From: Streptomyces sp. Mut1
GTDB lineage: Bacteria; Actinomycetota; Actinomycetes; Streptomycetales; Streptomycetaceae
Reading direction: 5' to 3'
Assembly: GCF_030719295.1 (NCBI RefSeq)
Contig: NZ_CP120997.1
Span: forward strand, 4,413,501 to 4,477,500
Length of the DNA stretch: 64,000 nt
In this document: piece after piece, positions 46,798 to 64,000 of the stretch
Layout: every line of letters starts with the position of its first letter
Numbering within the stretch: the stretch's first letter is position 1
Translations under genes and position numbers: made by a program
The notes under the pieces: model-generated
The model's database searches: none
Told to the model about the DNA's origin: nothing
What the model saw: only the letters and a program-made list of their open reading frames with translations

Positions 46798-46799
46798 TC

Positions 46800-48436: not shown

Positions 48437-48461
48437 CCCACTCTTAACCTCGAAGTGTCGT

Positions 48462-48599: not shown

Positions 48600-48735
48600 G
48601 TTACTGGTCAGCCGGGGTTCGGCAGGAGTGCGAGCTGGTCCAGTGCGGCGGTGGTGTGGAGGGGCAGGTTGCGCAGGCCGGTGGCTCGGGCGGCCCGGAT
48701 ACGGTCCTCGGCCAGGGCCCGCAGCCGGTGACGGA
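48600..48735 (-). mobile_element. IS1380-like transposase 3' remnant
   Basis: The minus strand encodes RLRALAEDRIRAARATGLRN followed by LPLHTTA, the conserved C-terminal segment of IS1380-family transposases, then quickly diverges and stops. It abuts the IS5-like remnant on the other strand. Confidence 0.65.
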
Positions 48736-49313
48736 GCTCGAGTCGAGGTCCTCCTCGCCAAGCTCCGCAGCGCGGACGCCCTGGACCTTTCCCGGGCCGC
48801 GGTCGACGGCTCCCACATTTGCGCATTAAAGGGGGCTCCAAGACGGGACGAAGCCCTGTTGACCGGGGCAGAAGCGGCAGCAAGCATCACTTGATCACCG
48901 ACGCCACCGGCATTCCGCTCGCCGCCACCTTGACCGGCGGCAATCGCAACGACGTCACCCAGCTGATCCCTCTTCTCCAGGCCGTGCCGCCGGTGCGGGG
49001 CAAGCGCGGCCGGCCCCGGCGCCGCCCGGACGTGGTGCTGGGCGACCGCGGCTACGACCACGACAAGCACCGTCGCCTGGCCCGGGACCTCGGCGTGAAG
49101 CCGTTGATCGCCCGCCGCGGCGCCGGGCACGGCTCCGGCCTGGGCACCCAACGCTGGGTCGTTGAGCGCGTGTTCGCCCATCTGCACTGGTTCCGTCGCC
49201 TGCGGATCCGCGGGGAGATACGCGACGACATCCACGAATCCTTCCTCACCCTCGGATTCGCACTCATCTGCCGGCGGCGACTGTGTGCTCCGGCGAGCGA
49301 TGCCCTGGGCTAG
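48736..49313 (+). mobile_element. IS5-like transposase, truncated and frameshifted
   Basis: The first frame gives LLAKLRSADALDLSRAAVDG, SHICALKG; a one-base loss in the run AAAGGGGG near 48830 moves the reading to the next frame, which continues GGSKTGRSPVDRGRSGSKHH to FFLTL-type end (VERVFAHLHWFRRLRIRGEI). The N-terminal half is missing. The DDE residues D (VDGSH), D (LGDRGYDHD) and E (VVERV) are recognisable but the gene cannot work. Confidence 0.75.
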
Positions 49314-49654
49314 TCAGCCGCCGTCAGCCGGTTGAGAACTTCCATGGGAGTGAAATCCCAGCCGACCAGGCGCGGCCCACTCCAGTTGATGCCGATCTTG
49401 AGTCCATCCCGGGCGTAATCGGGCAGTTCGCGATCGCGCCAGGTCTCCAGCGGCATGGATTCAACGCGTAGCCCATGCCCCCAGATCTTCGCTGCCCTCT
49501 GGGCGCGGGCCGGGGTCGACCAGAAGGGAAGACTTCGCGCGCCGTCCGCGGAGAGGTGGCTCGGCATTCCGTCGTCATCCCGGACGAGCCAGACGACTCT
49601 GCTTTGGCGGACATCCCGGAAGAACGCTGCCGCTTGCGAACCGCTCTGACTCAT
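49310..49654 (-). CDS. DUF2750 family protein
   Basis: 114 residues from ATG 49654 (GTG 49660 also in frame). Pattern VVWLVRDDDGMPSHLSADGA, SLPFWSTPARAQRAAKIWG, LKIGINWSG, a good match to the DUF2750 family of small proteins often found as immunity-like or orphan genes. Overlaps the IS5-like remnant end by four bases. Confidence 0.75.
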   Translation of the reverse strand: MSQSGSQAAAFFRDVRQSRVVWLVRDDDGMPSHLSADGARSLPFWSTPARAQRAAKIWGHGLRVESMPLETWRDRELPDYARDGLKIGINWSGPRLVGWDFTPMEVLNRLTAAD

Positions 49655-49930
49655 GGCCACAGAGACTAGCGGTACCCGCCACTCATTTCGTCAGGGGTTC
49701 TTAGTCGATCAGGGGTCGTGTACTCCTTCTCCACCCCTGTGACGTATGTTCCACCGACGTTCGTGCAGCGCGGCTCGGTCCCGCTGATGACGCAGGAGTC
49801 CTGTGCCGCCGTCGCCGCCCCAAGCGACATCTGACCTGGACGACGCCCGTCCCGACCCGGGCGTACACCTGGTACGGCACGGTGGTTTCGCCATGAGTCT
49901 GCCGGTCGGACGTCCCGATGTGGGTCCGGC

Positions 49931-50015
49931 CTTGATCAGGACGCGGGCGGAGGCGGGGTTGTCGGGGTGGTGTATGGCCTCCAGCCGGTTGAGGCCGCAG
50001 TGGTAGAGGCGACGT
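49931..50015 (-). pseudogene. fragment of a GNAT acetyltransferase gene
   Basis: The minus strand encodes LNRLEAIHHPDNPASARVLI then KAG, the C-terminal acetyl-CoA-binding signature of RimI-like GNAT enzymes. Nothing before or after it in the 401-base gap (49655-50055) continues the family, so it is a stray fragment. Confidence 0.6.
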
Positions 50016-50055
50016 GCGGATGTCCCTCCACTCGGTGGGGATGTGCTCGAACACG

Positions 50056-50589
50056 TCAGAGTATTCTGAAGAAGGGGGTGCGCAGGAAGTAGGCCATGTC
50101 GGCCCACACGAAGAGGCAGATACTCATTATTCCTGCTGCTGAGGGTGTGACGATGTCCCAATCGCCTGCGACTGCCGTGGCTACGCAGTTGTCACCTTCA
50201 TGGACGTAGATCTTTAGCCTGCGCACGGTGAATGTGATCCCCAGGCCGTCAAACGCAATGATTCTGGCGGATCGACGAAGAGACGAGTGGGTGCGGATGC
50301 TGAACTCCGTACCGTTCAACTCACCCTCGGCTCCGGACTCCAGACGCTTTCGACCCGCGTAGAGGGGTACGCCCAGGTCCCTGACCTTTACCTCGGCTAC
50401 CCCTGTCAGGGTAACGACCCAATCCTCCCAGGCGTCAGCCAGGGCGACTGGGGTGCGAGTGCTGGACGGGCCGCGAAGCAGTGTGACCTCGCCAAGTGGC
50501 GTATCCACTCTCGAGTAAACCGCTTCGGTCTTCGCGGGCGAGCTCCACAGCGCCCCAGAGATGTCGTATTTGAAGTCCTTGTATCTCAC
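50056..50589 (-). CDS. hypothetical protein with C-terminal membrane helix
   Basis: 177 residues, GTG 50589 after GAGGAA. A beta-rich body (RVDTPLGEVTLLRG, VVTLTGVAEVKVRDLGV, ITFTVRRLKIYVHEGD) and a final hydrophobic helix AAGIMSICLFVWADMAYFL. No family recognised; island gene. Confidence 0.55.
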   Translation of the reverse strand: MRYKDFKYDISGALWSSPAKTEAVYSRVDTPLGEVTLLRGPSSTRTPVALADAWEDWVVTLTGVAEVKVRDLGVPLYAGRKRLESGAEGELNGTEFSIRTHSSLRRSARIIAFDGLGITFTVRRLKIYVHEGDNCVATAVAGDWDIVTPSAAGIMSICLFVWADMAYFLRTPFFRIL

Positions 50590-50740
50590 AATTCCTCGCG
50601 AAGTTCGGGTGACGCACCGGGGGCCCTGGTGGGTACAGGGACCCCGATGTGCCGAATCTTAGTGGTCTTGCCACGGGTCTCCGGCAGGAATCGCGTGCGG
50701 GTCAATTCCGCCACTCCATGCTGGGCCCGACGCGAAGTTC

Positions 50741-51019
50741 ATGAGCCAGGAACCTCGCCTCTACACGGGAACCGGCCCAGCGGGTGAAGGCCTTGGCCAC
50801 ACCACCATCGACCTCAAATCCAGCGGCTGGGACAGCAATACCCACCCGCTGATCACTTCCGAAGGCGACAGCAACGGCGATGGCAAACCCGACCTCTATG
50901 CCACGAGCCACGACACCAACAAGGGAATCTATTTCTACCCGTCCATCACCACGACCGGCATAGGATCACCTACCGTCGCCGGCACCACCGGATGGCTCAA
51001 CTTCCAAGCGCTCAGCTGA
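50741..51019 (+). pseudogene. C-terminal fragment of an FG-GAP/VCBS-repeat protein
   Basis: 92 codons: RLYTGTGPAGEGLGHTTIDL, EGDSNGDGKPDLYATSHDTN, and a closing TTGWLNFQALS. The last propeller blade of a Streptomyces secreted VCBS protein without signal peptide or other blades. Probably a truncated gene. Confidence 0.6.
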
Positions 51020-51030
51020 AGCAGCACGTC

Positions 51031-51079
51031 CACTGTGGGAGGGCTGCCTGCTGCTCTTGAGAGCAGCCCTCCCCCAGTG
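51031..51079 (+). terminator. terminator of the FG-GAP fragment
   Basis: CACTGTGGGAGGGCTGC pairs with GCAGCCCTCCCCCAGTG across a 15-base loop. It directly follows the fragment's stop, so the ancestral gene end is preserved. Confidence 0.65.
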
Positions 51080-51215
51080 GGTTCGACACCTGTTTCGGCA
51101 CTGATGGTGCGCGGAGGGGCTGGAGCCGGTGGAGATTTTGGGCCGGTCCGGGCCGCAGCGGCAACGGATGCACATTCGAGCGAAGCTCAAGCGGGGACCG
51201 GGGGCACATGAGCGG
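51078..51215 (+). pseudogene. decayed 3' end of an XRE-cupin regulator
   Basis: The DNA aligns with 44524-44655: TTCGACACC, GCACTG-TGG, CCGGTGGAG and ATGCACATTCGAGCGAAG all correspond. The translated pieces are EPVEILG, GPQRQRMHIRAKLKRGPG against PVEFLSLFGPQGERMHVRAK of the intact gene. A one-base gap and a TGA in place of the Trp codon disable it. Confidence 0.65.
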
Positions 51216-51277
51216 CGGGGTGCGGTGGCGGAGGGAAGACGGGCGGCAGCCCCTGCGATCTTCGTCGGTACGGCTCG

Positions 51278-51847
51278 TCATGACACGTGAAAGATGTATC
51301 TCAAGGATCCATACAGTAGCGCGTGAAGCGCTGCGACAATCAATGGAACTCTGAGAGACAAGGAAAAGGTCTGCACTATCCTTTCGTTTTCGTGAGGATC
51401 AGCACTGCTCATGAACGGGAGGATTTTGCACCTGAGTAGCTTGGCTGATGGATAGCCCGCGAGCTGGCCGATCATCGAAGTGCCCACCACGCGTCCCTTG
51501 ATTTCGCTACCGTCTCTGAGCTTGAAGGTCAGCCCATCACTGACGCTCACTCTGTTTATTTGTCCGTACGGGATGACGCTCTCCGTTACAAAATTGCGCA
51601 CCGTGACGGATTCGTCGGACAGCGTCACCTGCGGGCGGACGGTGAGTACCCACGCCATCCAGGCGATTGTCACGCTAATGGTTCCACCTGTGAGTGACCT
51701 ATTGATCAGCGATTCCTCCACTTTCCCTGGAACTATCGCAAGGGATGCTCCTGCCCCGAACATTGCTACGGTTGCAGTCAGTCCTAGGTAACGAACCTTA
51801 CTGTGGAACGTTCTGCCTCTCTGGGTGACAGCTGTGAACTTATTCAA
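51278..51847 (-). CDS. membrane protein with PH-like domain
   Basis: 189 residues, TTG start. Two helices near the N-terminus (TATVAMFGAGASLAIVPG, ISVTIAWMAWVLTV), then a bPH-like beta domain (VTLSDESVTVRNFVTESVIP, GQINRVSVSDGLTFKLRDGS), and a final helix. Island gene with ordinary rather than extreme GC. Function unknown. Confidence 0.6.
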   Translation of the reverse strand: MNKFTAVTQRGRTFHSKVRYLGLTATVAMFGAGASLAIVPGKVEESLINRSLTGGTISVTIAWMAWVLTVRPQVTLSDESVTVRNFVTESVIPYGQINRVSVSDGLTFKLRDGSEIKGRVVGTSMIGQLAGYPSAKLLRCKILPFMSSADPHENERIVQTFSLSLRVPLIVAALHALLYGSLRYIFHVS

Positions 51848-51901
51848 GGTGGTGGATTCTCGCTCCCTCTGGGTTGGTGGGGCTCTTGGGAGAGGTTGAG
51901 G

Positions 51902-52168
51902 CTAGAACCCAAAAAGTAGGATTTTGATGTTTATGAAAGCGAATGCGGTACCCATTATTGCGGCGAATCCGGCTGGAAGCCTCAGGATGAGGTCATTGCG
52001 GTAGAAGGCCGAAAATATCATCTCCCCCAAGAAGTCGGCGACTGCCTCGGCGCAGCCTCGAATGTTGAACGCAAGGAGCGAGCCGATCACGGCCACAAGA
52101 ACTCCCGCGATGAGCTCTCCGTAGTTCACGGAGTGCGAGGTTCGAGCCGCAAGGACCATCTCGTACAT
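51902..52168 (-). CDS. small two-helix membrane protein
   Basis: 88 residues from ATG 52168 after GGAGG. Hydrophobic segments LIAGVLVAVIGSLLAFNI and LPAGFAAIMGTAFAFINIKI. Strong ribosome site supports it. No family recognised. Confidence 0.6.
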   Translation of the reverse strand: MYEMVLAARTSHSVNYGELIAGVLVAVIGSLLAFNIRGCAEAVADFLGEMIFSAFYRNDLILRLPAGFAAIMGTAFAFINIKILLFGF

Positions 52169-52451
52169 TTTTGCCTCCGGGGGCGCGTGAGACAGCAGGC
52201 CCGCACGCCCCGTGTGGTCGTGGAATTCACAGATGATGGGGTGGCCTATTCTGTTGTGTATGAGATTTTGCGTTCCCACTTCGGCTCCAGCGCCGGCTCC
52301 TACGGACAATGGGATGGCATGGTGCGTACCAGCCTCGACACTAATTGAGACACCGTCGGCGGACCCTCAAGAAAGATCGAGGTTAAAGAATTTCTCGCAT
52401 TCCTTCGACGGCCCAGAGCATCCCGATGGGAGTTCTTTGTCGTGATATTGG

Positions 52452-53387: not shown

Positions 53388-54764
53388 TCAACCGGTGGAG
53401 CTGGACACCGGAGGGTTGTCGGCATCGGCCGTCGGGAAGGCCAGCCGGCGGCCGATGTCGGCGGTGACACGGCCCTCGACCATGGTGGCGACGACGCGAT
53501 GGCCGAACGTCATGCCGTGGAACGGGGTGTTGTCCGACGCGCTGACCGACTCCGTCCGGTCCACCCGCCAGTCGGCCTCGGGGTCCACCAGGGTGAACGT
53601 CGCGGGCTCCCCGGCGCGCAGCGGACGGCCCGCTACGTCGGCGAGTCCCGCGATACCGGCCGGCCGGGTCGACATCACCGTGGCCAGGAGGCCCCAGTCC
53701 GGTTCGCCGCCGTCGCCCAGGGCCTTTGCGACCACGGGGAGCGCAGTCTCCAGGCCCAGCATGCCGAAGGGCGCCTCGCACCAGTGGTTGTCCTTGCTCA
53801 ACGCGGTGTGCGGGGCGTGGTCGGTGGCAACGGCGTCGATGGTCCCGTCGCGCAGGGCCGCGCGCAGCGCCGCCACGTCCCCGGCGGTGCGCAGCGGCGG
53901 GTTCACCTTGTGCAGGGGGTCCCCGTCGCGCGCCAGGAGATCGGTGAGCAGCAGGTGGTGGGGGGTCACTTCGGCCGTCACCGGCCAGCCGCGCGACTTG
54001 GCCCACCTGACGATTTCAACGGTCCCCGCTGTGGAGACGTGGCAGATGTGCAGCCGTCCGCCGGTGGCCCCGGCGATTACCACGTCACGGGCGACGATCG
54101 TCTCCTCGGCCGTAGCCGGCCAGGGCGGCAGACCAGTGGCGTGCGCCGCCGCGCCGGCGTTGACCTGGCCGCGCTCCGCGAGACGCGGGCACTGCGCGTG
54201 CTGGGCGACGAAAGTTCCGGTGCGGCGGGCTGCCTCCAGTGCCCGCAGCAGGAGCCTTGGGTCCTCGACACATACACCGTCGTCGGAGAACATCAGAGCG
54301 CCGGCGGCCGCCATGGCGTCGAGGGGGGCGAGGCTGCGGCCGGCGAGCCCGCTGGTGACGGCCCCCACCGGGTGCACCCGGCAGGACGCGGTTCGTGCCG
54401 CCCGCTCGATGATGTGCCGTACCCGCTCGGGGGTGTCGGTCGCCGGCACGCAGTTGGCCATGGCGAGCACGTCGGAGTACCCGCCGTGCGCCGCCGCCCC
54501 GGTACCACTCGCGATGGTCTCCGAGGCCGCGTCGCCGGGCTCGCGCAGGTGGGTGTGGAGGTCCACCAGGGCCGGCAGCATGATCAGGCCGTCGCAGTCG
54601 GCTGTCGTCGTGTCCGCGGCACTCGTGCCGCCCGCGTTCCCGGGGGACGTCACGGTGGCGATCCGGCCGTCCCGTACGGTCACGTCCCGGGGTGGGCCGC
54701 CGAGGGGCCGTACTCCCCGCAGGGTCATCATCCTTGCGGGGCCGTCCGCCCAGGTGCCGTTCAC
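53388..54764 (-). CDS. dihydroorotase-like amidohydrolase
   Basis: 458 residues. Metal-dependent cyclic amidase of the amidohydrolase superfamily; dihydroorotases interconvert dihydroorotate and N-carbamoyl-L-aspartate. Class I signature: DLHTHLREPG near residue 66, CHVSTAGTVE, TAEVTPHHLLLTD and the catalytic Asp in AVATDHAPHT. Last gene of the operon, overlapping the PyrK-like gene by four bases. Company with an N-carbamoylase argues that it opens the ring (catabolic direction); a dihydropyrimidinase-like or allantoinase-like substrate is possible. Confidence 0.85.
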   Translation of the reverse strand: MNGTWADGPARMMTLRGVRPLGGPPRDVTVRDGRIATVTSPGNAGGTSAADTTTADCDGLIMLPALVDLHTHLREPGDAASETIASGTGAAAHGGYSDVLAMANCVPATDTPERVRHIIERAARTASCRVHPVGAVTSGLAGRSLAPLDAMAAAGALMFSDDGVCVEDPRLLLRALEAARRTGTFVAQHAQCPRLAERGQVNAGAAAHATGLPPWPATAEETIVARDVVIAGATGGRLHICHVSTAGTVEIVRWAKSRGWPVTAEVTPHHLLLTDLLARDGDPLHKVNPPLRTAGDVAALRAALRDGTIDAVATDHAPHTALSKDNHWCEAPFGMLGLETALPVVAKALGDGGEPDWGLLATVMSTRPAGIAGLADVAGRPLRAGEPATFTLVDPEADWRVDRTESVSASDNTPFHGMTFGHRVVATMVEGRVTADIGRRLAFPTADADNPPVSSSTG

Positions 54765-55648
54765 CGGTCGGTGTCCGGGCGCGTGAGGCGGAAGACCGGT
54801 CCGTCCGCGCAGATCAGCGGGGACTCCTCGGGACCGCTCCTGGTCCCGGTGGCGCAGCCATGGCAGTACCCGAGGCCGCAGGCCATGTGGGCTTCCAGCG
54901 ATACCTGGACGTCCGATGCCCAGCGTTGGCCGAGCTCCTCACAGAGCCGGGCCAGCCGTTCCGAACCGCACGTCAGGATCTGCTGCGGAGGGGCCTGGTC
55001 GAGGTCTGCGGTCAGCATGGCCCGGAGCCGGGTCACGTCGCTGCTGCCGGTGTCGTCGGTGACCTCGTGCAGTCGGGTCACGCCGGCCGCCCGGTAGACG
55101 TCGGCACCTACGACTCTGTCCGCGCTTCTGCCGCTGGCCACGGCGACGATCTCGACTTCGGTCCCGGCGCACTCCTGGGCGACCGTGGTCAGTGAACAGG
55201 TGCCGATACCGCGTCCGACCAGAAGAACGCGCCGCGTTCGCGGGGCGATCCGGAATCCCTGGCCCAGCGGTCCCACGACCAGCATCCGTTCGCCGGGGCG
55301 GAAGGAGGCCAGCCGGCGGGTGCCGTCACCGACCACCCCGAGGACGATGTCGAGGGTGCCGGCCTCCGGGTTCCGGCTGTACACGGCCATGGGGCGCGGC
55401 AGGACGGGGCCCGTGTCCCCGTCCCGGGCCGCGGTCAGCATGACGAACTGTCCTGCCCGGCATGTACGGGCGATGCTCGGTGCTTCCAGGCGCAGGAGGT
55501 GGTAGCCCCGGCCGTGCGGGGCGGAGGCGAGGACCCGGGCACGGTGCCAGGTCGGGGCGGGCCGGTCGGTCTCGGACCCGGACAGCGGTGTCACGCTGTC
55601 CCGGACCGGTACGCCGGCCGCTGTGTCCGTTATGTCGAGGGTGTTCAT
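54761..55648 (-). CDS. PyrK-like dihydroorotate dehydrogenase electron-transfer subunit
   Basis: 295 residues. Ferredoxin-reductase-like flavoprotein: FAD domain LPRPMAVYSR, LGVVGDGTRRLASFRPGERM, NAD domain VLLVGRGIGTCSLTTVAQEC and a C-terminal 2Fe-2S site with Cys in ACGLGYCHGCATG and PLICADGPVF. Such a subunit links the class 1B enzyme (58088-59065) to NAD(H). It is separated from that enzyme by three genes. N-terminal extension of about 35 residues is longer than usual. Confidence 0.88.
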   Translation of the reverse strand: MNTLDITDTAAGVPVRDSVTPLSGSETDRPAPTWHRARVLASAPHGRGYHLLRLEAPSIARTCRAGQFVMLTAARDGDTGPVLPRPMAVYSRNPEAGTLDIVLGVVGDGTRRLASFRPGERMLVVGPLGQGFRIAPRTRRVLLVGRGIGTCSLTTVAQECAGTEVEIVAVASGRSADRVVGADVYRAAGVTRLHEVTDDTGSSDVTRLRAMLTADLDQAPPQQILTCGSERLARLCEELGQRWASDVQVSLEAHMACGLGYCHGCATGTRSGPEESPLICADGPVFRLTRPDTDR

Positions 55649-56943
55649 GCTACGAGGGCCTCCTGTGCGGACAGCCGGGCCTCAAGTCGCAGGAGACTCG
55701 CTGCCAGGATGTCGGTTCCGACGGCGAGTTCGGCCGGACGGGTCAGCTCCTCGGGGCTGTGGCTGACCCCGCCGTTGTGACTGGGGACGAAGATCATGCC
55801 GGTGGGCACCACATGGTTGATCATCTGTGCGTCGTGACTGGCCCCGCTCGGCATGACCCGGTGTGCGACCCCGGCCTCCGTCGCGGCCTCGGCGACGGTG
55901 TCCCGGAGCCATCGGGGAAGGATGACGGGGGAGGCGTCGGCCAGCAGCCGGGATTCGTATCCGATTCCGCGCCGGGAGCAGATGCTCTGTGCGCCTTCGA
56001 CGATCTCCGCAGCGGTCAGCCGCTGTCGGTCGTTGTCGACGTCCCGGACGTCGACATACACCTCGACGCTCCCTGCGATCGTGGTGAGGGACCCAGGTGA
56101 GACATTCATACGTCCGACGGTTGCGCGGGTGCCGTGATGGCGGCTGTCGTTGGCGAGGGACTCGATCATCAGGATGATCTCCGCCGCCGCGGCCATCGCG
56201 TCGGCCCTCAGCCGCATCGGGGTCCCCCCGGTGTGCGAGGCCCGTCCGGTGAGATCGAGGCGCAGCCGGGTGCTGCCCGAGATCAGGTCGACGAGTCCGA
56301 GGGGAACGGACTCGGACGCCAGCAGGGATCCCTGCTCTATGTGCAGTTCCAGGAAGGCGGCCCAGTCCTCGCCGCGCCAGCGGGCCGCCTCGGTGTCGTT
56401 CGGATCGAGGCCGACAGCTGTCATGGCCTGCGCCAGCGACACGCACTCGGCGTCCTGCTTGGTCTCCAGGTCGGCCGGACCGGTCAGTCCTGCGGCGATC
56501 CGGCTGCCCGTGCACGCCTGTCCGAAGCGGGCTCCCTCCTCGGCGGCGAAGGCCACGAACCGGACCGGACGGGTGAGCCGGGTCTCGCTGGAGACATACA
56601 GCTGCGCCACCTCCATCGCCGCGACCACACCGGCTATGCCGTCGTACGCGCCGGCGCCCGGCACGCTGTCGAGATGGGAGCCAGTGCCGAGGCCCGGCAG
56701 TTCGGGGGTCGTGCCGGGCAGTTCGGCGATCGTGTTGCCGGCCGTGTCCGTGCGCACGTCCAGGCCGAGCGCCCGCATGTGCGCGGCGTACCTGTCGTGG
56801 GCCCGGCGTTCGAGCGGGGTGTACGCGAGTCGGGTGACGCCAGGGCCCCGGCCGGGCTCCGACAATCCGGCGAAGGCGTCCAGGTGCGCTTGGAGCCGGC
56901 CGGCGTCGGCGCGCGGGAGGGAGGCGAGGGCGGGCGCGGTCAT
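55645..56943 (-). CDS. M20 family N-carbamoyl-L-amino acid hydrolase / allantoate amidohydrolase type
   Basis: 432 residues. Binuclear metallopeptidase fold of the HyuC/AllC/ureidopropionase group: GTGSHLDSVPGAGAYDG (His, Asp ligands), FAAEEGARFG (Glu pair), ELHIEQGSLLASESVPLGLV (His) and the dimerisation insert SHTGGTPMRLRADAM. It hydrolyses N-carbamoyl groups to free amine, ammonia and CO2. In this operon N-carbamoyl-aspartate from the dihydroorotase is the natural candidate substrate. Confidence 0.88.
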   Translation of the reverse strand: MTAPALASLPRADAGRLQAHLDAFAGLSEPGRGPGVTRLAYTPLERRAHDRYAAHMRALGLDVRTDTAGNTIAELPGTTPELPGLGTGSHLDSVPGAGAYDGIAGVVAAMEVAQLYVSSETRLTRPVRFVAFAAEEGARFGQACTGSRIAAGLTGPADLETKQDAECVSLAQAMTAVGLDPNDTEAARWRGEDWAAFLELHIEQGSLLASESVPLGLVDLISGSTRLRLDLTGRASHTGGTPMRLRADAMAAAAEIILMIESLANDSRHHGTRATVGRMNVSPGSLTTIAGSVEVYVDVRDVDNDRQRLTAAEIVEGAQSICSRRGIGYESRLLADASPVILPRWLRDTVAEAATEAGVAHRVMPSGASHDAQMINHVVPTGMIFVPSHNGGVSHSPEELTRPAELAVGTDILAASLLRLEARLSAQEALVA

Positions 56944-57422
56944 CGGAGTCCGGCCGACGCGGCTTCCGCCTCAGAGAGCAGCGATACCACGGGGACGGAA
57001 CCCGCGGCGTCGAGTGCCGGCGTGTGCAGGACAGCTGCCACCGCGGCCACTTCGGCGTCCGCGCCGTGCAAAAGGCTGAGCAGGGCCTTCAGCCAGCGCG
57101 GCTCCCAGGCGGTCGCCAGCAGCACGACCCGGTCGCCGGGGGTGATGGTGGGGGTGACGGTGGCGATTCCGGACGCGTCGGTGACCCGTAGGACGGTCGC
57201 GCCCGTCGCCAGGGCCACGATGTGGGCGAGCACGGCGTCGTCGCTGCTCTCCCACACCGCGATGTGGTCCGGCCTCAGGTCGCGTACGGCGTCGGCGACG
57301 GCCCGGCCGATGAGATCGGCCGTGGCCGGGGACACCTGTGTGTTCAGGGTGGTGCCGTAGGCGTCCGTGGCCGCGCCGAGTTCACGGGCGGCGGACAGGA
57401 TCGCGAGGGTGCTTTCGGTCAT
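56940..57422 (-). CDS. phosphoribosyltransferase-fold protein B, degenerate PRPP loop
   Basis: 160 residues, ATG 57422. Looks like an orotate-phosphoribosyltransferase-type fold (ATADLIGRAVADAVRDLRPD, HIVALATGATVLRVTD) but where active enzymes carry two Asp in the PRPP loop this one has PGDRVVLLATAWEPRWLKAL. Overlaps both neighbours by four bases. Probably not a standard transferase; perhaps a subunit or sensor together with protein A. Confidence 0.6.
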   Translation of the reverse strand: MTESTLAILSAARELGAATDAYGTTLNTQVSPATADLIGRAVADAVRDLRPDHIAVWESSDDAVLAHIVALATGATVLRVTDASGIATVTPTITPGDRVVLLATAWEPRWLKALLSLLHGADAEVAAVAAVLHTPALDAAGSVPVVSLLSEAEAASAGLR

Positions 57423-58003
57423 CGGGGATCGTCCTCCTTCTGGTCGGCCGCGGGCCCGAGCGGGGCCCGCGAAGGGGTGGCGGAGAAGAGCGCGTGGAAC
57501 CGTACTCCGTACTGTTCCAGGAGCGTGTCCGCCACACCGTTGTCGCTGCGGTTGAGCACGCTGAGGACGTGGGAGACCCTCATCCCGGCTTTCAGGGCGG
57601 CCCGCAGCGGTGGTGCCGCGTCCTGCGCTGTGCGCATCAACGGCACGACGGCGACGGTGTACTCGCCCGCGTGGGCCTCGCCGGTCAGGCGGGCGTCCTG
57701 TCCGCTTCCGGTCACCGTCGCGAACGGCAGCCCCGTGTGCAGGGCCAGGGCGGTGGTGGCGGCGATGCCGTCGGGGGCGGCGCACACCAGCCGGTCGGTT
57801 CCGGGGGGGAGCGCCTCGGAGAGCAGCGCCGCGGTGCGGCGCAGGATGGACGGCCGGCTCTGGACGGCTACGACGTCGACCCGGCCGTCGCCGGCGGGGG
57901 CCACCGCGAGTATGTCGGCGTACAGTTCGGCGCTTCGTTGCTGGGCGCTCTGAAAAGCGCTGGGGACGTCGGGTGCCGTGTGCAGGGCCTGGGCAAGGTT
58001 CAT
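57419..58003 (-). CDS. phosphoribosyltransferase-fold protein A, degenerate PRPP loop
   Basis: 194 residues. VDVVAVQSRPSILRRTAALL, VCAAPDGIAATTALALHTGL and the later LRAALKAGMRVSHVLSVLNR follow the order of orotate phosphoribosyltransferase (substrate strand, GG loop, PRPP strand/helix), but the loop reads VAVVPLMRTAQD, lacking the acidic pair. Directly upstream of and overlapping protein B, suggesting the two form a complex. Confidence 0.6.
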   Translation of the reverse strand: MNLAQALHTAPDVPSAFQSAQQRSAELYADILAVAPAGDGRVDVVAVQSRPSILRRTAALLSEALPPGTDRLVCAAPDGIAATTALALHTGLPFATVTGSGQDARLTGEAHAGEYTVAVVPLMRTAQDAAPPLRAALKAGMRVSHVLSVLNRSDNGVADTLLEQYGVRFHALFSATPSRAPLGPAADQKEDDPR

Positions 58004-58087
58004 GGGGGCTCCGTGGATGGGAGTCGGTGGAGACCGCGCGGGGTCGGGGTAAGGCGCCGGGAGGTGTGGCCCGGCCGCGGAGAGGAG

Positions 58088-59065
58088 TCAGGTCCGCACC
58101 GTGCCGCGTTCGTCCGCGAGACGGGCGATGCCGAGTTCGCGGCACAGGGCGTCGAGGTCCCGCAGGATCCCGGTCATGGCGTACGGGCGGGTGAACGTCG
58201 CCGTGCCGATCTGTACGGCGGTGGCTCCGGCCAGGACGAACTCCAGGACGTCCCGCGCGGTGCTGATGCCGCCGCATCCGATGACGGGTATCCCGACGGC
58301 CGAGGCGGCCTGCCACACCAGGCGCAGCACTATGGGCCGGACCGCGGGCCCGGACAGTCCTCCCACTCCGTTGCCCAGCACCGCGCTCCGCCCGGTCACG
58401 TCGATGGCCATGCCGGGGAAGGTGTTGGCGACTGTCACGGCGGTCGCGCCCGCCTGCTCGGCGGCCCGCGCGATGTCACTGATCGATGTCACGTTCGGGG
58501 TCAGTTTGACGATGACGGGCAGTGAAGTGCGCGCCACGACACCGGAGACGACGCGCTCCACGGTCGACGCGTCCGTTCCGATGGCGAGCCCACCGTGCTC
58601 AAGGTTCGGGCAGGAGACGTTCACCTCCAGTGCCCTGCAGGGGGCGTCCGCGAGATCCTCGGTGATCCGCCAGTACTCCTCCACGCTGAGGCCTCCGACG
58701 CTCACCACGACGGGCACCCCGAACGACCGATAGCGGGGCAGCACCGTGCGGATGAACTCCGTCGAGCCCGGACTGGGGATCCCCACGCTGTTCAGCATGC
58801 CCTCTGCGCTCTCGGTGAGCCGGTGCGAGGGGTTGCCGGAACGCCGTTGCGAGAAAAGCGTCTTGGTGACCACCGCGCCCAGCTCATGTACCGGCAGGAG
58901 AGCGGCGAGCTCAGGACCGAAGCAGCCCGACGCGGGCATGACGGGGTTGGCCAGACGCAGCGGGCCGAGCCGGACCGCGAGGTCGGTCCGGTACGCGGCG
59001 TGGTCCGCGAAGTGCCGGTCACGGTCGTCGAGCACTGCGGGACTGTGGTCCTGGACCTCCATCAT
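58088..59065 (-). CDS. dihydroorotate dehydrogenase, class 1B
   Basis: 325 residues. FMN TIM barrel catalysing dihydroorotate/orotate interconversion. Class 1 features: ANPVMPASGCFG, VTKTLFSQRRSGNPSHRL, catalytic Cys in NVSCPNLEHGG, VKLTPNVTSISDIARAA, VANTFPGMAID, GGLSGPAVRPIVLRLVWQAA. The catalytic Cys rather than Ser and the PyrK-like gene in the operon mark class 1B, which uses NAD(H). A N-terminal extension of about 25 residues is present. Biosynthetic pyrimidine genes (pyrBC, carAB, pyrF) are not adjacent. Confidence 0.9.
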   Translation of the reverse strand: MMEVQDHSPAVLDDRDRHFADHAAYRTDLAVRLGPLRLANPVMPASGCFGPELAALLPVHELGAVVTKTLFSQRRSGNPSHRLTESAEGMLNSVGIPSPGSTEFIRTVLPRYRSFGVPVVVSVGGLSVEEYWRITEDLADAPCRALEVNVSCPNLEHGGLAIGTDASTVERVVSGVVARTSLPVIVKLTPNVTSISDIARAAEQAGATAVTVANTFPGMAIDVTGRSAVLGNGVGGLSGPAVRPIVLRLVWQAASAVGIPVIGCGGISTARDVLEFVLAGATAVQIGTATFTRPYAMTGILRDLDALCRELGIARLADERGTVRT

Positions 59066-59171
59066 GGGGGCCTGCCTTCTGCGTCGGAGGGATCGGGGGA
59101 AAGGGGGCGGAAGCGCGCCGGGCCGGCCGGTGTCCGGGCCACCGGCGCGGGGGCGGCGGGGGCGCGGGGCG

Positions 59172-59966
59172 TCAGCCGCCGAATCGCTCGGTGAGCTTGC
59201 GCTCGGCCCAGCCGATGAGGGCGTACATGACCCACGCCATGAGGCAGAGCAGCCCGAGGCAGATGATCACGAGCTTGATGTCGTCGTTGTCCTGGGCCTG
59301 CTTCTCCAGGTAACCGAGCCCCGACTGCGCTCCGATGAACTCGCCGATGACCGCCGCTGTCACCGCCTGCAGAACCCCCAGGCGCAGACCTACGGCGATG
59401 GCCGGCAGGCTGTACGGCAGGTCGATTTTGACGGCTCTGGCGACCGGCCCGATGCGCAGCAGGCGGACCAGGTCGTCGATGCTCGTGGGCATGGACCGGA
59501 GCCGTGTCACCATGTTGATCATGATCGGATAGAAGGACACCATGGCCACAAGAGCGATCTTGGAGCCGATGCCGAGCCCCAGCCAGAGCACGATCAGCGG
59601 GGCGATCGAGATCTTCGGGGTTACCTGCGCCACGATGACCAGCGGCATCAGAATGCGTTCGACGAGCGGCACGCGGGTGAAGAGGATCGCCAGGACGACC
59701 CCTGCCACCAAGCCGATCAGTACACCCTGCACCACCTCGGCCAGCGTCTGCTGGATGTGCACCGTGAGCACGCCGTCCCCGGTGTACTGCCAGGCCTGAC
59801 TGGCCACCGTGGCCGGGCTCGGCAGCTTGTAAGCCGGTATACCGAAGGCCGCTGTGGCCAGCCACCAAAGTGCGACACCGGCCAGCAGGGACAGCATGCC
59901 GATCAGTACCGGCCGGACGGCGTCGGCCGTCCGGCCAGGGCGGGCGGCCGCCTCAGTCGAGGTCAT
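59172..59966 (-). CDS. ABC transporter permease (NitT/TauT/SsuC type), second
   Basis: 264 residues with six membrane helices and the inner-membrane signature PYSLPAIAVGLRLGVLQAVT AAV... region that contacts the ATPase (EAA-like loop). Overlaps the binding-protein gene by 14 bases. With 61014-61853 it forms the heterodimeric channel of the importer. Confidence 0.88.
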   Translation of the reverse strand: MTSTEAAARPGRTADAVRPVLIGMLSLLAGVALWWLATAAFGIPAYKLPSPATVASQAWQYTGDGVLTVHIQQTLAEVVQGVLIGLVAGVVLAILFTRVPLVERILMPLVIVAQVTPKISIAPLIVLWLGLGIGSKIALVAMVSFYPIMINMVTRLRSMPTSIDDLVRLLRIGPVARAVKIDLPYSLPAIAVGLRLGVLQAVTAAVIGEFIGAQSGLGYLEKQAQDNDDIKLVIICLGLLCLMAWVMYALIGWAERKLTERFGG

Positions 59967-60981
59967 CCGGCTTCACCACCAGATCACTCGCGTCGAAGGA
60001 CGTGTCGAGCAGCTTGAACTGCTTCTGGGAGTCGATGGCCTTCTGCCAGCGGGCGAGGTCAGGTGAGCCCAGGCCGTTCTTCTGCGTGTTGTCCGACTGC
60101 CACAGGCTCTTGACGAAGAGGTCCTCGACGATCGTGGTGATCTCCTCCTCCTGGCCCTTGAACGAGGTGGCGTACTTCTTTACCGACATATCGACCGCCT
60201 TACGCGGGTTCTTGACGGTGTACTCGATCCCCTTGTTCAGCGCGCTGCCGAACGCCTTGACCGTGTCCGGGTCGCTCTTGACGGCATCCTCACCAGTGAT
60301 GATCACGTTGCCGAAGGAGGGCAGGTACTTGTCGCTCAGGATCTGGTTCACCTCGACCCCGGCGGACTGGAGCGCGTAGTACCGCAGGCGCGAGAAGATG
60401 ATCGCGTCGACCTGCCCGTTCTTCAGCGCGTCCACGATGACGCCAGTGCCCAGGGTGCGGACCTTCACGTCGGAGACCTTCAGACCGGCGCTCTGGAGCA
60501 TCGCCTGGAGCTGAATGTAGTTCGGGCTGCCGAGGTCGGTGACCGCGACGGTCTTGCCCTTCAGGTCCGCGGGGGAGTCGATGTTCGCGGAGGGCTGGGA
60601 GAGCAGCGAGCCGATGCCCTGTTGATAGGTGGTGTGCACGACCTTGGTCTTGATGCCCTTGCCGTACGCGGTGACGACCGAGTCGCCGTTCGGGAAGCCG
60701 AAGTCGACGTTGCCCGACGCCACGTTCTTCACGATGTCGGAGCCCTGGGCGTAGGTGAAATCGACGTCCAGGCCCGCGTCGGAGAAGTAGCCCTGTTCCT
60801 TGGCTTCGTACAGCGGGGCGTAGTACGGCACCGCGGCGCCGTCGATCTGGACGGTGACCTTCTTGGTGCCGTCGGACGATGTCTTCGCCGAGCCGGAGGA
60901 GCCAGGGCTGCAGGCGGCGAGAAGAGCGGCTACGGCCAGGGCGGCGGGGATACCGACCAGCTTCTGGGACCTTCTGTTCAT
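59953..60981 (-). CDS. ABC transporter solute-binding lipoprotein (NMT1/THI5-like)
   Basis: 342 residues. Lipobox LLAACSPG at about 20-24, so membrane-anchored outside. The body is the NMT1/SsuA type 2 binding fold (YYAPLYEAKEQGYFSDAGLD, DFGFPNGDSVVTAYGKGIK, GKTVAVTDLGSPNYIQLQAM, KNGQVDAIIFSRLRYYAL). This group includes binders of pyrimidine precursors, riboflavin, aromatic and sulfonate ligands. AAGGAAAG precedes the ATG. The operon suggests an orotate- or pyrimidine-like ligand. Confidence 0.88.
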   Translation of the reverse strand: MNRRSQKLVGIPAALAVAALLAACSPGSSGSAKTSSDGTKKVTVQIDGAAVPYYAPLYEAKEQGYFSDAGLDVDFTYAQGSDIVKNVASGNVDFGFPNGDSVVTAYGKGIKTKVVHTTYQQGIGSLLSQPSANIDSPADLKGKTVAVTDLGSPNYIQLQAMLQSAGLKVSDVKVRTLGTGVIVDALKNGQVDAIIFSRLRYYALQSAGVEVNQILSDKYLPSFGNVIITGEDAVKSDPDTVKAFGSALNKGIEYTVKNPRKAVDMSVKKYATSFKGQEEEITTIVEDLFVKSLWQSDNTQKNGLGSPDLARWQKAIDSQKQFKLLDTSFDASDLVVKPDDLD

Positions 60982-61013
60982 GATCTTTCCTTGGGGCGAG
61001 GTGGGAGTGAAAC

Positions 61014-61853
61014 TCAGCGGTTCCAGTGCAGGAGCTTGCGCTCGGCCAGGGAGACGAGGCCGAAACCGAGGAGCCCGACCGCCACCGTGATGAGGACTGC
61101 GGCTATCAGCAGGGGGGTGTCACTGGAGGTGTTGCCGAGCACCATGAGGTATCCCAGGCCACGTTCGGAGGCGAGGTACTCCGCCAGGAACGCGCCGGTC
61201 ATGGCGTCGATGACGGCGATCTTGGCGCCGGCCAGCAGCGCGGGGACAGCCGCGGGCAGCTGGATCTTCCGCAGATACTGCCAGCGGGACAGGTGCAGCA
61301 GCCGGCCGAGTGAGCTGACGTCCGCGGTGACCTCCTTCAGCCCGAGCATCGTGGCCATGGCCATCGGGAAGAAGACCAGCAGCAGGATGAGCGCGTACTG
61401 AGAGGTCAGGCTGAGACCGAACCAGAGCACCAGCAGCGGTGCGACGGCGATCTTGGGAGCGGCCTGGAGCAGCACCATGTAGGGCGCGAGGATCTCCCGC
61501 ACCGTACGGGAGGCCCACAGCACCCAGCCCAGGGCGATACCGATCAATGACCCGCCGAGGAATCCCAGCACGATGTTGCGCAGGGTGTAGCTGAGGTTGG
61601 GCCACAGCGTGCCGTCCGTTACCAGCTTCACCCCCGCGTCCAGTACGTCGCCGGGAGCGGGCAGCAGATAGGACGGTACGTCGGCCAGCCTGACATAGGT
61701 GCTCCAGGCCGCCAGCACGGCCGCCGCGTAGGCGAGCGGCGTCAGTATCCGTACGGTCCTGCGGAGGGCGCCGCTGTGGCGGAGGCCGGATCCTGCGGGA
61801 CGCTTCCCGTCCCGGCCGGGAGCCGGGCGGCGGGTGAGGGTTTCCGTACTCAC
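61014..61853 (-). CDS. ABC transporter permease (NitT/TauT/SsuC type), first
   Basis: 279 residues; basic Arg/Pro-rich N-terminus, then six membrane helices and the EAA-like loop QLPAAVPALLAGAKIAVIDA. Starts inside the end of the ATPase gene (ATGA overlap). Confidence 0.88.
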   Translation of the reverse strand: MSTETLTRRPAPGRDGKRPAGSGLRHSGALRRTVRILTPLAYAAAVLAAWSTYVRLADVPSYLLPAPGDVLDAGVKLVTDGTLWPNLSYTLRNIVLGFLGGSLIGIALGWVLWASRTVREILAPYMVLLQAAPKIAVAPLLVLWFGLSLTSQYALILLLVFFPMAMATMLGLKEVTADVSSLGRLLHLSRWQYLRKIQLPAAVPALLAGAKIAVIDAMTGAFLAEYLASERGLGYLMVLGNTSSDTPLLIAAVLITVAVGLLGFGLVSLAERKLLHWNR

Positions 61854-62686
61854 ACCAGCTCCTGACGGAGCATGCCGGAGAACTTCGCGAATTCGGGCAG
61901 CTGCCTGGTCTCGGGGGTGCGGTCACGGTCCAGGGGGACGGTGTGGATGGCCTTGATGCGGCCCGGCCGTGCCGACATCACGGCCACACGGTCGGCGAGG
62001 TAGGTGGCCTCCTCGACGCTGTGGGTGACCAGGACGATGGTCTTGTGGGTCGTTTCCCAGATGCGTAGCAGGTCGTCGTGGAGCCGGTCCCTGGTGATGG
62101 CATCCAGCGCCCCGAAGGGTTCGTCCATGAGCAGGATCCGGGGGTTGTAGGCCAACGCGCGGGCGATGGCGGTGCGCTGGCGCATGCCGCCGGACAGTTC
62201 CTTGGGGAACGAGTCGGCGAAGTCGGTGAGACCGACCAGGTCGAGCAGGTTCGCCACCTGCTCGCGCCCCTGCTCCGAGGTGTCGCGCTGCGCCTCCAGA
62301 CCCAAGGCGACATTGCGCCGGACTGTGCGCCACGGAAGCAGCGCCGGCTCCTGGAAGACGAAGCCGATGTCCTTGCCCGGACGCGGAGGGACACTCCAGT
62401 CCAGGTCTCCTTCGAAGTCTGTGTCCAGGCCGGCCATCATCCTCAGCAGTGTCGACTTGCCGCACCCGGAGGGCCCGATGAGCGCGACGATCTCGCCCTC
62501 GCCCACGTCCAGATCTACGTCCTCCAGAGCCACCACCGTCGAGCGCTTGGCAGAGGTGTAGGTCTTGTGGACCCCTCGGACCGACAGGAGAGGGCTCATG
62601 CGGACCCCGCCCCCCGACATCGCACGGTCCGAGACGCTCGTGCCGCGGTGACACCCGTCATCGGTGTGTGTGGAGTGGTGTGGCAT
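61850..62686 (-). CDS. ABC transporter ATP-binding protein
   Basis: 278 residues from ATG 62686, chosen for the strong GAGGAG just upstream; the normal family N-terminus (MSPLLSVRGVHKTY) begins at ATG 62599, so there would be a 29-residue His/Asp/Ser-rich extension. Walker A GPSGCGKST, signature LSGGMRQRTAIARALA, Walker B ILLMDEPFGALDAITRD, switch His in LVTHSVEEA. First gene of the operon. Confidence 0.9.
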   Translation of the reverse strand: MPHHSTHTDDGCHRGTSVSDRAMSGGGVRMSPLLSVRGVHKTYTSAKRSTVVALEDVDLDVGEGEIVALIGPSGCGKSTLLRMMAGLDTDFEGDLDWSVPPRPGKDIGFVFQEPALLPWRTVRRNVALGLEAQRDTSEQGREQVANLLDLVGLTDFADSFPKELSGGMRQRTAIARALAYNPRILLMDEPFGALDAITRDRLHDDLLRIWETTHKTIVLVTHSVEEATYLADRVAVMSARPGRIKAIHTVPLDRDRTPETRQLPEFAKFSGMLRQELV

Positions 62687-63002
62687 GAAGATCTCCTCAA
62701 TCGTCACGGCGTCGGTGCCCGTACGGAGCCCAGCGGGATCGTTCCGGATCACCGGCACACCACCAAGATTTCCGTATTTGGAAAACGGGCTTCCACTTCG
62801 CTAGTCAGAGACTGGATGCTTTTTCGGCCATAGTCAAGGCCCTAGATCTCGGCCCGCAAATCGGGTATACCGTCAGGCGTGTTCGCTTTTTCCGGATGTG
62901 TGGGGCCGACGCAGGAGCAACCCGCGTGCTGGAAAGTTACGTTCCCGGTCACACACTTCTTCCACTCATGAAAATTGAGTCTTCATAAGGAGGTCGTCGC
63001 CG
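62687..63002. promoter_or_regulatory. divergent control region with palindromic sites
   Basis: 316 bases between the operon and the phosphorylase gene. TTTCC-GTATTT-GGAAA at 62769-62784 is a perfect-armed 16-base palindrome beside the operon promoter; GGAA-AGTTACG-TTCC at 62931-62945 lies nearer the phosphorylase gene. The TTCC-N6-GGAA form is IclR-like, and an IclR-type gene appears to begin at 63929. AAGGAGG at about 62988 serves the phosphorylase gene. Confidence 0.5.
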
Positions 63003-63824
63003 ATGGCGAGAAGCGCACAGGATCCATGGCGCAAGGGGGCGCCGCCCCATCTCCCGGCCGGAGCCGGCACCCTCCCACCGGTCTGTCTGCTCCCGGGAGA
63101 CCCCGCCCGGGTCGACCTGGCCGCCGAGGTGCTCGACGACTTCCGAATCCTCGGCCAGAACCGAGAGTTCAGGATCGGTACCGGCCGAGCACCCGGCGGC
63201 CGGCGGATCGCGGTTTGCTCGACCGGTATCGGAGGCCCCTCCACCGAGATCGCCGTTGTCGAGCTCGCCCGGCTCGGAGTAACGACCGTTCTGCGCACCG
63301 GCGGCATGGGCGCCCTGACCGGCCGTATCCCACCGGGTACCGTGTGCGCGGCTGTTCGGGCGGTACCCGGCAGCGGCGCCGCCTCGCACTATCCCGGCGA
63401 CCCGGATGGGCCGACGGCCCATCCGGCCGTGCTGACCGCCCTCCGGCAGGCAGCGCGCGGCCTGGACGTACCGCTCACCGAGATCTCCGTCGCCACCGTC
63501 GACTCGTACTACCTCGGGCAGGGACGGCCACTTCCCGGACACGAGGAGCGCGCGGCCGCCAGGATGGACGTCCTGCGAGGACTGGGCATCGACGGCCTGG
63601 AGATGGAGACCGAGACGGTGCTGGCGGTGGCCGGGGCCCTCGGCGTACGAGCAGGTGCCGTGCTGGTCGCGCACGCCAACCGTGCCACCGACGACTGGCT
63701 TGAGGACTACCGCCCCGCGCAACTCGCCATGCTGCGGGTGGCGGTGAGCGCGGCGGCGCTACTCTCGGACGACGGCGATCCGCAGGCGGGCACCGCGATC
63801 ACGACCTCGACAGCGCACGGGTGA
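63003..63824 (+). CDS. uridine-phosphorylase-like nucleoside phosphorylase
   Basis: 273 residues. NP-I fold: LLPGDPARVDLAAEVL (phosphate-binding GDP-R), AVCSTGIGGPSTEIAVVELA, LRTGGMGALTGRIPPG and DGLEMETETVLAVA (ribose-binding Glu-Met-Glu). Uridine-type phosphorylases release the base and ribose-1-phosphate from a nucleoside. Divergent from the pyrimidine operon and probably co-regulated, so it may feed that operon with a base; strict substrate unknown. Confidence 0.85.
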   Translation: MARSAQDPWRKGAPPHLPAGAGTLPPVCLLPGDPARVDLAAEVLDDFRILGQNREFRIGTGRAPGGRRIAVCSTGIGGPSTEIAVVELARLGVTTVLRTGGMGALTGRIPPGTVCAAVRAVPGSGAASHYPGDPDGPTAHPAVLTALRQAARGLDVPLTEISVATVDSYYLGQGRPLPGHEERAAARMDVLRGLGIDGLEMETETVLAVAGALGVRAGAVLVAHANRATDDWLEDYRPAQLAMLRVAVSAAALLSDDGDPQAGTAITTSTAHG

Positions 63825-63928: not shown

Positions 63929-64000
63929 CTGAGTACCGACAGTTACACCAGAACGCTGCGCATCCTGCGGGTCATCGCGGCCCATTTGCGCGGCATGTCG
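63929..64000 (+). CDS. IclR-type regulator, N-terminus only (cut by window edge)
   Basis: Open frame to the right edge: STDSYTRTLRILRVIAAHLR GMS, like the first helix of IclR N-terminal HTH domains (RTLRIL-VIA). The only start codon in frame after the TGA at 63857-63859 is a CTG at 63929. It follows the phosphorylase gene by 104 bases. The call rests on 24 residues and position beside a catabolic operon. Confidence 0.45.
   Translation, partial: MSTDSYTRTLRILRVIAAHLRGMS

Follow-up and report, generated by a model that had tools for sequence, protein, structure and literature searches.

The locus described here raises the question of why an aerobic Streptomyces should carry homologues of pyrC, pyrD and pyrK in one operon with an M20-type N-carbamoyl-amino-acid hydrolase. 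The stretch analysed, hereafter the window, comprises 64,000 nucleotides of Streptomyces sp. Mut1 (contig NZ_CP120997.1, positions 4,413,501 to 4,477,500 of the forward strand). A first-pass annotation had read the operon as an orotate import and degradation system; to that picture we add the kinship of its two small genes with OPRT, a neighbouring IclR gene and the strain variability of the operon. This reading is supported by a separate set of housekeeping pyr genes, by a sequence motif and the phylogeny of the dihydroorotate dehydrogenase (DHODH), by the recruitment of different dihydroorotases, and by the orotate phosphoribosyltransferase (OPRT), PyrF and tripartite ATP-independent periplasmic (TRAP) importer of 4NN3 type found in related operons. 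On this sequence evidence, we consider it very probable that the operon is an orotate catabolic module.

Gene content and proposed pathway

The operon consists of ten minus-strand genes, from 62758 to 53388, and is faced by a divergent plus-strand phosphorylase gene, all of them open at the coordinates below. The families previously assigned were borne out by Pfam and NCBIfam, and the uridine-phosphorylase-like frame was likewise confirmed. In operon order, followed by the divergent gene, these are:

61850..62758, minus strand: ATPase of an ATP-binding cassette (ABC) importer (PF00005; true start probably downstream of 62758)
61014..61853, minus strand: ABC importer permease 1 (PF00528; GTGA overlap with the ATPase gene)
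59953..60981, minus strand: NMT1/THI5-type substrate-binding lipoprotein (PF09084, 158 bits)
59172..59966, minus strand: ABC importer permease 2 (phmmer match to permease 1, 113 bits)
58088..59065, minus strand: class 1B-type DHODH, proposed orotate reductase subunit (NF005574, TIGR01037, residues, tree)
57419..58003, minus strand: PRTx, degenerate OPRT homologue or pseudo-OPRT (profile comparison; TIGR00336 below cut-off)
56940..57422, minus strand: PRTy, second homologue with a phosphoribosyltransferase (PRT) fold, apparently non-catalytic (profile comparison with OPRTs)
55645..56943, minus strand: M20 N-carbamoyl-amino-acid hydrolase, proposed N-carbamoyl-L-aspartate hydrolase or ureidosuccinase (TIGR01879)
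54761..55648, minus strand: PyrK-like FAD/2Fe-2S electron-transfer subunit (PF10418)
53388..54764, minus strand: class I dihydroorotase (TIGR00857, motifs)
63003..63824, plus strand: uridine-phosphorylase-like nucleoside phosphorylase, divergent (PF01048, 103 bits)

Five four-base overlaps had been described as ATGA; all five exist, but the letters are ATGA at three junctions (57422/57419, 56943/56940 and 55648/55645) and GTGA at the other two (54764/54761 and 61853/61850). The second permease gene overlaps the binding-protein gene by 14 bases, and short gaps separate DHODH from PRTx (84 bases), permease from DHODH (106 bases) and binding protein from permease (32 bases). The ten genes likely form a single transcript.

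In the pathway that we propose, the ABC importer would bring orotate, or a nucleoside of orotate, into the cell, and the divergent phosphorylase may release orotate from orotidine. DHODH and the PyrK-like subunit, working in the reverse of the biosynthetic direction, would then reduce orotate to L-dihydroorotate with NAD(P)H, the dihydroorotase would open the ring to give N-carbamoyl-L-aspartate, and the M20 enzyme would hydrolyse the latter to L-aspartate, CO2 and NH3, yielding nitrogen and carbon, all under the putative control of an IclR regulator. Gene content and residues place candidates for an orotate reductase, a dihydroorotase and an N-carbamoyl-aspartate hydrolase together, from which we infer the substrate of the M20 enzyme and the direction of the DHODH; the other substrates, the regulation and the roles of the importer, phosphorylase and pseudo-OPRTs are proposed in the same manner.

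Separate housekeeping pyrimidine genes

In this genome (G000, 8.0 Mb, four contigs), a pyrR-pyrB-pyrC-carA-carB-pyrD-pyrF operon is located on contig C1 at 1.06-1.07 Mb, and pyrE lies at 3.57 Mb of the same contig (113 bits, cut-off 106.8). The housekeeping pyrD is of class 2 (TIGR01036 415 bits, cut-off 200) and pyrC scores 771 bits to NF006836, while carB was called by position and length rather than by a family-model score and, when used as a query, hits long genes that precede pyrK-pyrD elsewhere. Besides this pyrD, the window DHODH is the only full-length PF01180 match in the genome. The catabolic reading had been made to depend on a second pyrD/pyrC elsewhere, and both were thus found, with pyrE also separate. 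As had been noted on first pass, none of the biosynthetic partners pyrB, carAB and pyrF was detected among the ten operon genes with Pfam and NCBIfam, and the OPRT homologues are degenerate, without the phosphoribosyl pyrophosphate (PRPP) motif. Since a separate pyr operon and pyrE exist, this operon is not the biosynthetic set.

A PyrK-DHODH-M20 module in other bacteria

A genome collection was scanned with the DHODH alignment, from which the best 80 loci by similarity were taken, and plasmid searches added further regions. Neighbouring genes were counted in 97 loci, three of which held no DHODH; the sample is not random, since similarity to proteins of the window was the basis of selection. 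Loci were labelled as M20- or CarB-associated from their neighbours, an M20 gene being counted when located at most 6 kb from the DHODH on the same strand. An M20 gene was found near the DHODH in 28 of the 97 loci (18 rows carry this label in the alignment and tree, where the limit was 5 kb and open reading frames were handled less well); PyrK accompanies it in 28/28 and CarB in 0/28. These 28 loci also hold OPRT or PRTx (20), a class II dihydroorotase (11), a class I-type dihydroorotase (5) or PRTy (5). CarB without M20 was seen in 22 loci, neither gene in 44, and both together near the DHODH in none of the 97.

The PyrK-DHODH-M20 core is present in Actinomycetota, Chloroflexota and Pseudomonadota, with one ambiguous locus in Bacillota. 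The latter, from Halalkalibacter (L044), is the sole Bacillota locus among the 28 and was retained in the counts; its amidohydrolase passes both the allantoinase (361 vs 357.85) and the dihydroorotase (324 vs 279) cut-offs, and it may belong to another pathway. The first-pass suggestion to look for the same gene order in relatives proved fruitful, since DHODH-PRTx-PRTy-M20-PyrK-dihydroorotase recurs in another genome of the genus (L131) and in Nonomuraea pusilla (L042), which argues that the arrangement is not due to chance. In N. pusilla, an IclR gene is also present, and a major facilitator superfamily (MFS) transporter replaces the ABC importer. More generally, the transporter differs between module versions, being of NMT1 ABC, TRAP or MFS type. 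Plasmid records carrying the module come from Agrobacterium, Neorhizobium, Variovorax, Roseomonas, Nitratireductor, Paracoccus, Pseudomonas putida and Klebsiella.

Many proteobacterial versions include an OPRT; that of L035, for example, reaches 396 bits with NF001729 (cut-off 245). The OPRT of Roseibium (L063) is followed by PyrF (231 bits, cut-off 110.6). OPRT and PyrF in these sister operons represent a predicted arm for salvage of the same substrate. In the Nitratireductor version (L035), the TRAP binding protein matches PDB 4NN3 with 438.8 bits, well ahead of the second-best structure (178 bits). According to the published description, the ligand bound in 4NN3 was orotic acid, and residue 152 is a Lys in 4NN3 but an Arg in the others (PMC11668362). 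The TRAP proteins of L045, L047, L060, L063 and L183 score 464-561 bits to the Nitratireductor protein; more distant relatives are found in L044 (178 bits) and L107 (188 bits).

With regard to individual records, the region 5892-18489 of Roseibium marinum L063 contains one orotate operon, including OPRT and PyrF, that has both a 4NN3-type TRAP importer and an NMT1 ABC-phosphorylase block as neighbours. A Klebsiella plasmid (L179, 5533-12770, one record) shows the order MFS-PyrK-DHODH-M20-pyrC-regulator near copper and lac genes, and Klebsiella accounts for 57 of the 171 plasmid records in which DHODH was matched.

DHODH and its PyrK-like subunit

The window DHODH exceeds the curated class 1B cut-offs (NF005574 346.1 bits, cut-off 269; TIGR01037 283.3 bits, cut-off 270). 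In the alignment, it keeps K68, N92, N149, C152, N214 and T215, which we take, from the roles assigned in Lactococcus structures, to be the orotate ligands and the catalytic Cys. The DHODH alignment comprises 84 sequences, after removal of class 2 enzymes (L009, L012) and window duplicates (L010, L016, L036), and the DHODHs of some loci (e.g., L031) are not in the tree. All six orotate-contacting positions are intact in 17/18 M20-associated and 22/22 CarB-associated enzymes. By contrast, the loop following the Asn ligand separates the two groups of class 1B DHODHs: in this alignment-based count, it reads GIPS(K/P/R)G in 17/18 M20-associated rows (GIPSPG in the window) and GIQSKG in the remaining one, versus GL(Q/E/A)N(P/N)G in 22/22 CarB-associated rows. 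In the tree, a single branch splits M20-associated from CarB-associated rows; it is present in 200/200 bootstrap trees, with a support of 94/84, just under the star criterion of 95/80, in a bootstrap that had not settled. The window DHODH groups with those of another genome of the genus, Nonomuraea, a Chloroflexota locus and Cryobacterium.

The PyrK-like subunit passes PF10418 (41.5 bits, cut-off 23.9) and scores about 103 bits with PyrK models, below their equivalog cut-offs. Its translation contains four Cys arranged as C-x4-C-x2-C-...-C, as well as RPMAVYS.

Dihydroorotase and M20 hydrolase

The window dihydroorotase scores 376 bits to TIGR00857 (cut-off 279) and 536.1 bits to NF006836, about 2 bits under the cut-off of 538. 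It harbours HTHLREPG, MAN, HICHVST and TDHAPHT, the first two also seen in the alignment to 3MPG and presumably representing the metal motif with the carboxylate-binding Arg and Asn. Three distant dihydroorotase subfamilies occur in the module, namely the PRK09357 type (the window protein, and L042 with 526 bits, read to 15400 only), the PRK09236 type (L180, on a P. putida plasmid, 701 bits, cut-off 535) and class II TIGR00856 (L033 418 bits, L179 411 bits, cut-off 293). Because different dihydroorotases were recruited for the same step, dihydroorotate is the probable intermediate.

The M20 protein scores 367 bits to TIGR01879 (cut-off 204), and H90, D101, E135, E136, H201 and H395, which we take to be the catalytic residues, are present. 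Arg226 was considered as a marker for the aspartate side chain and rejected: it is present in the aligned operon-linked M20s, but also in a paralogue from this same genome (L149) and in a second M20 of L066, and hence does not discriminate. The M20 proteins of Agrobacterium and Neorhizobium (L032:10670-12328, L184:1712-3382) have about 550 residues, and their C-terminal part resembles a separate small protein encoded after the OPRT elsewhere (39 bits with that of L183), hinting that the M20 enzyme and the small protein may work together. A 108-residue proteobacterial protein was dismissed as a relative of PRTy by reading the sequences, which are those of differing proteins; no profile comparison was made.

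Importer, phosphorylase and regulator

Taurine/sulfonate/nitrate-type ATPase models of NCBIfam match the importer ATPase with scores under their cut-offs, and the best structural matches of the binding protein are weak (4NMY, 67.5 bits; ThiY-type 3IX1, 65.4 bits). Among the best 25 of 667 records, the binding protein is 46-51% identical to proteins in plasmid records of Microvirga, Neorhizobium, Agrobacterium and Enterococcus, the next ones sharing at most 33%; in the records from these four genera, a phosphorylase gene similar to that of the window lies within the cluster or close to it. In Agrobacterium, Neorhizobium and Roseibium, this block of ABC importer and phosphorylase is a neighbour of the DHODH operon. 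As the copies of Enterococcus and Microvirga (20.9 kb examined) stand without DHODH, it is a separable uptake block. The Enterococcus gallinarum plasmid (L178, 3521-10661) carries an NMT1 ABC importer, a PucR regulator, an MFS transporter, a nucleoside phosphorylase and a phosphopentomutase close together.

In the alignment, the window phosphorylase keeps the base-binding Gln/Arg and the phosphate Arg. Ile220 and Thr94, in what we take to be the numbering and residue roles of the Vibrio uridine phosphorylase, are replaced by His and Gly, respectively, in 7/7 ABC-linked phosphorylases (window, L032, L063, L131, L178, L181 and L184, those of the window and L131 being near-copies), and neither substitution is found in the L182 enzyme, which is not ABC-linked. 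Enzymes with His at the Ile position would thus constitute a new phosphorylase subfamily. Since Roseibium possesses both a 4NN3-type TRAP importer and the ABC-phosphorylase block, it is a reasonable guess that the block handles orotidine. Plain uridine is a possible alternative, and orotidine is put forward as a guess only, given that the Enterococcus enzyme shares the His although its gene has no orotate genes as neighbours.

Two further features accompany the divergent genes:

62770..62783, no strand assigned: candidate operator palindrome TTCCGTATTTGGAA in the divergent promoter region; weak
63930..64000, plus strand: 5' end of an IclR-type regulator, whose frame runs on to 64732, outside the window

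The regulator gene follows that of the phosphorylase and, from PF01614 and PF09339 matches on L015:86-832, belongs to the IclR family. Its frame is open from about 63930, with a first listed, provisional start at 63986; the regulator probably controls the operon. TTCC-N6-GGAA has its sole window match at the palindrome, but 39/100 shuffles also contain one; a candidate palindrome occurs at the same place in L131.

Weighing the alternatives

In addition to the branch support mentioned above, several observations weigh against orotate catabolism as the function. The DHODHs of L030, L034, L087 and L100, among the 44 other rows, have GIPS but have lost the Asn ligand; those of L030 and L034 are encoded with xanthine-dehydrogenase and asparaginase genes, and L030 also has a Rieske oxygenase. 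These Asn-less enzymes perhaps reduce another N-heterocycle, and the loss of the ligand, with the other contexts of L030 and L034, points to a clade whose substrate can shift. Conversely, two Cryobacterium loci (L043, L065) have GIPSRG and the Asn, with no M20 gene seen nearby. Within the module itself, 12 of the 28 M20 loci have no dihydroorotase within 6 kb (in L133 a match lies just beyond), and therefore a housekeeping dihydroorotase or another enzyme must presumably serve there. The Streptomyces M20 protein shares no more than about 30% identity with those of proteobacteria, so that the exact substrate is not transferable by homology, and the link to 4NN3 concerns the TRAP version of the module rather than the ABC importer of the window.

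Some of these features would fit the same chemistry acting on a modified orotate, or on another 6-carboxy-pyrimidine or imide, for example from a natural product: GIPS.G replaces GLQNPG beside the substrate pocket, the Asn-less sister enzymes neighbour Rieske, xanthine-dehydrogenase and asparaginase genes, and the phosphorylase pocket has gained a His. The orotate-contacting residues are kept, however, and plain orotate is favoured by the presence of OPRT, PyrF and a TRAP protein of 4NN3 type in sister operons, making this alternative improbable. To us, slightly less probable again is a reductive degradation of uracil or thymine, or of hydantoins, where the phosphorylase would free uracil, the DHODH-like enzyme would make dihydrouracil, and a hydantoinase-like enzyme and a beta-ureidopropionase would complete the route. 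The phosphorylase and M20 families agree with such a scheme and the DHODH does match the dihydropyrimidine dehydrogenase PreA, but with 131 bits, compared with 346 bits to PyrD 1B, and it keeps PyrD-type residues; moreover, the cyclic amidohydrolase has the HxHxR...N motif and is a dihydroorotase, and OPRT, PyrF and a TRAP protein of the orotic-acid type are encoded in sister operons. As for a second biosynthetic set, suggested by the grouping of pyrC, pyrD and pyrK homologues with OPRT-like genes, it is very improbable given the housekeeping operon and pyrE elsewhere (pyrC and pyrD not being sole copies), an M20 hydrolase that has no place in biosynthesis, the degenerate OPRT homologues, the absence of the operon from a genome of the same species, and ten genes without pyrB, carAB or pyrF.

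Two degenerate OPRT homologues

PRTx (58003-57419) and PRTy (57422-56940) reach no Pfam cut-off. In profile comparisons with OPRTs, PRTx gives a probability of 98.8% (E 6.5e-17) and PRTy 94.1% (E 1.3e-7), and PRTx scores 24.7 bits to TIGR00336 (cut-off 106.8); by these comparisons, both are degenerate PRT-fold relatives of OPRT. The PRPP-binding motif and the catalytic loop of OPRT are absent from both window proteins. In PRTx, the N-terminal SG..S..Y, catalytic-loop and PRPP motifs are lost in the window, Nonomuraea and Amycolatopsis rows. The PRTx proteins of Chloroflexota L049 and of G097 (L017), a genome of the same class as that of the window, still score as OPRTs (127.7 and 127.4 bits, cut-off 106.8) and keep the N-terminal, loop and EDV..TG motifs. 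For PRTy, the canonical PRPP motif is found in 0/11 aligned rows, that of L049 being closest. Two adjacent degenerate OPRT homologues in an operon appear to be a new arrangement.

The protein collection gave 41 PRTx matches, of which 35 span 89% or more of the query, five from Amycolatopsis span 53-63%, and one is a partial record. Plain decay of the pair is unlikely, because most matches are near full-length and the pair recurs in five loci. Between the window and G226, dN/dS (nonsynonymous over synonymous substitution rate) is 0.39 for PRTx, 0.71 for PRTy and 0.15-0.36 for the other nine genes; with a dS of only 0.15-0.28, the estimate for PRTy is uncertain, and constraint on this gene may be relaxed. 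No PRTx relative was found in viral contigs among 34 pattern matches. A non-catalytic sensing or scaffold role is our leading guess for the two proteins. A wider proposal, in which the actinomycete tandem (an ex-OPRT and its paralogue) is a non-catalytic pseudo-enzyme pair, perhaps an orotate- or nucleotide-sensing partner, and in which the phosphorylase is an orotidine phosphorylase with the importer feeding orotidine and orotate, is doubtful as a whole.

A search with the PRTy profile also picks up ordinary OPRTs elsewhere in the phylum. Weak PRTy matches were obtained in 37 actinobacterial genomes (own genome excluded); of the 19 loci checked among them, 18 hold ordinary OPRTs with the PRPP motif and were rejected as further copies of the operon.

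Relation to known systems

The anaerobe Clostridium (Zymobacterium) oroticum ferments orotate, as described biochemically decades ago. The proposed route resembles that of C. oroticum in having an NAD-linked class 1B-type DHODH acting on orotate, a dihydroorotase and a 'ureidosuccinase' acting on N-carbamoyl-aspartate. It differs in being encoded by an aerobe, with an ABC importer, a phosphorylase, an IclR regulator and two pseudo-OPRTs, and in the M20 gene proposed for the hydrolase; to our knowledge, EC 3.5.1.7 has no assigned gene. With biosynthetic PyrD-PyrK (e.g., PDB 1EP1), the window shares the two subunits, the orotate-site residues and the 2Fe-2S/FAD subunit, but lies across the tree branch, with GIPS.G instead of GLQNPG and no CarB in the loci examined. 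The reductive uracil pathway (PreTA/PydA, dihydropyrimidinase, beta-ureidopropionase) follows the same logic of reduction, ring opening and decarbamoylation, and also uses an M20 hydrolase, whereas the ring-reducing and ring-opening enzymes of the window are of the orotate/dihydroorotate type. Finally, the ErtD/ErtE branch of ergothioneine use converts hydantoin-5-propionate to N-carbamoyl-glutamate and then glutamate, by a homologous amidohydrolase and an M20 N-carbamoyl-dicarboxylate hydrolase (window M20 to ErtE 360 bits, cut-off 520); the window proteins remain under the cut-offs, and DHODH/PyrK are not part of that scheme.

Neither a gene-level account of an orotate catabolic operon nor a paper on the C. 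oroticum genes was found in the open-access literature searched, most subscription journals lying outside that scope. Several M20-associated DHODHs are labelled 'pyrimidine nucleotide biosynthetic process' in database records. The comparative set, which spans soil, marine and plasmid-borne settings, provides a candidate gene for each step, including the N-carbamoyl-aspartate hydrolase, so that an old biochemical pathway of an anaerobe can now be linked to testable genes, with related operons in many aerobes and plasmids.

Strain variability

A clear PRTy (E <= 1e-25) is present in 4 of 392 genomes of the genus, own genome included, with two further weak matches. In G194, labelled as the same species, no PRTy was found, and the sole DHODH match is 29% identical (45 bits). 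Its right flank matches from window coordinate 64803 onward at 97.6% identity and its left flank matches 51245-52303 at 87.5%, so that about 12.5 kb carrying the operon is missing, with about 3.4 kb of other DNA in its place; the left edge of this gap is approximate, the left flank being rearranged between both genomes. The operon is hence strain-variable. In the left flank (window 44894-52303), pieces occur in a different order relative to G194, and a transposase gene is located at 48819-49313. In another genome of the genus (G155, L132, 2172-16258), the operon appears split, with M20-IclR-MFS-DHODH on one side and, at a distance of about 7 kb, PRTy-IclR together with a fragment of DHODH.

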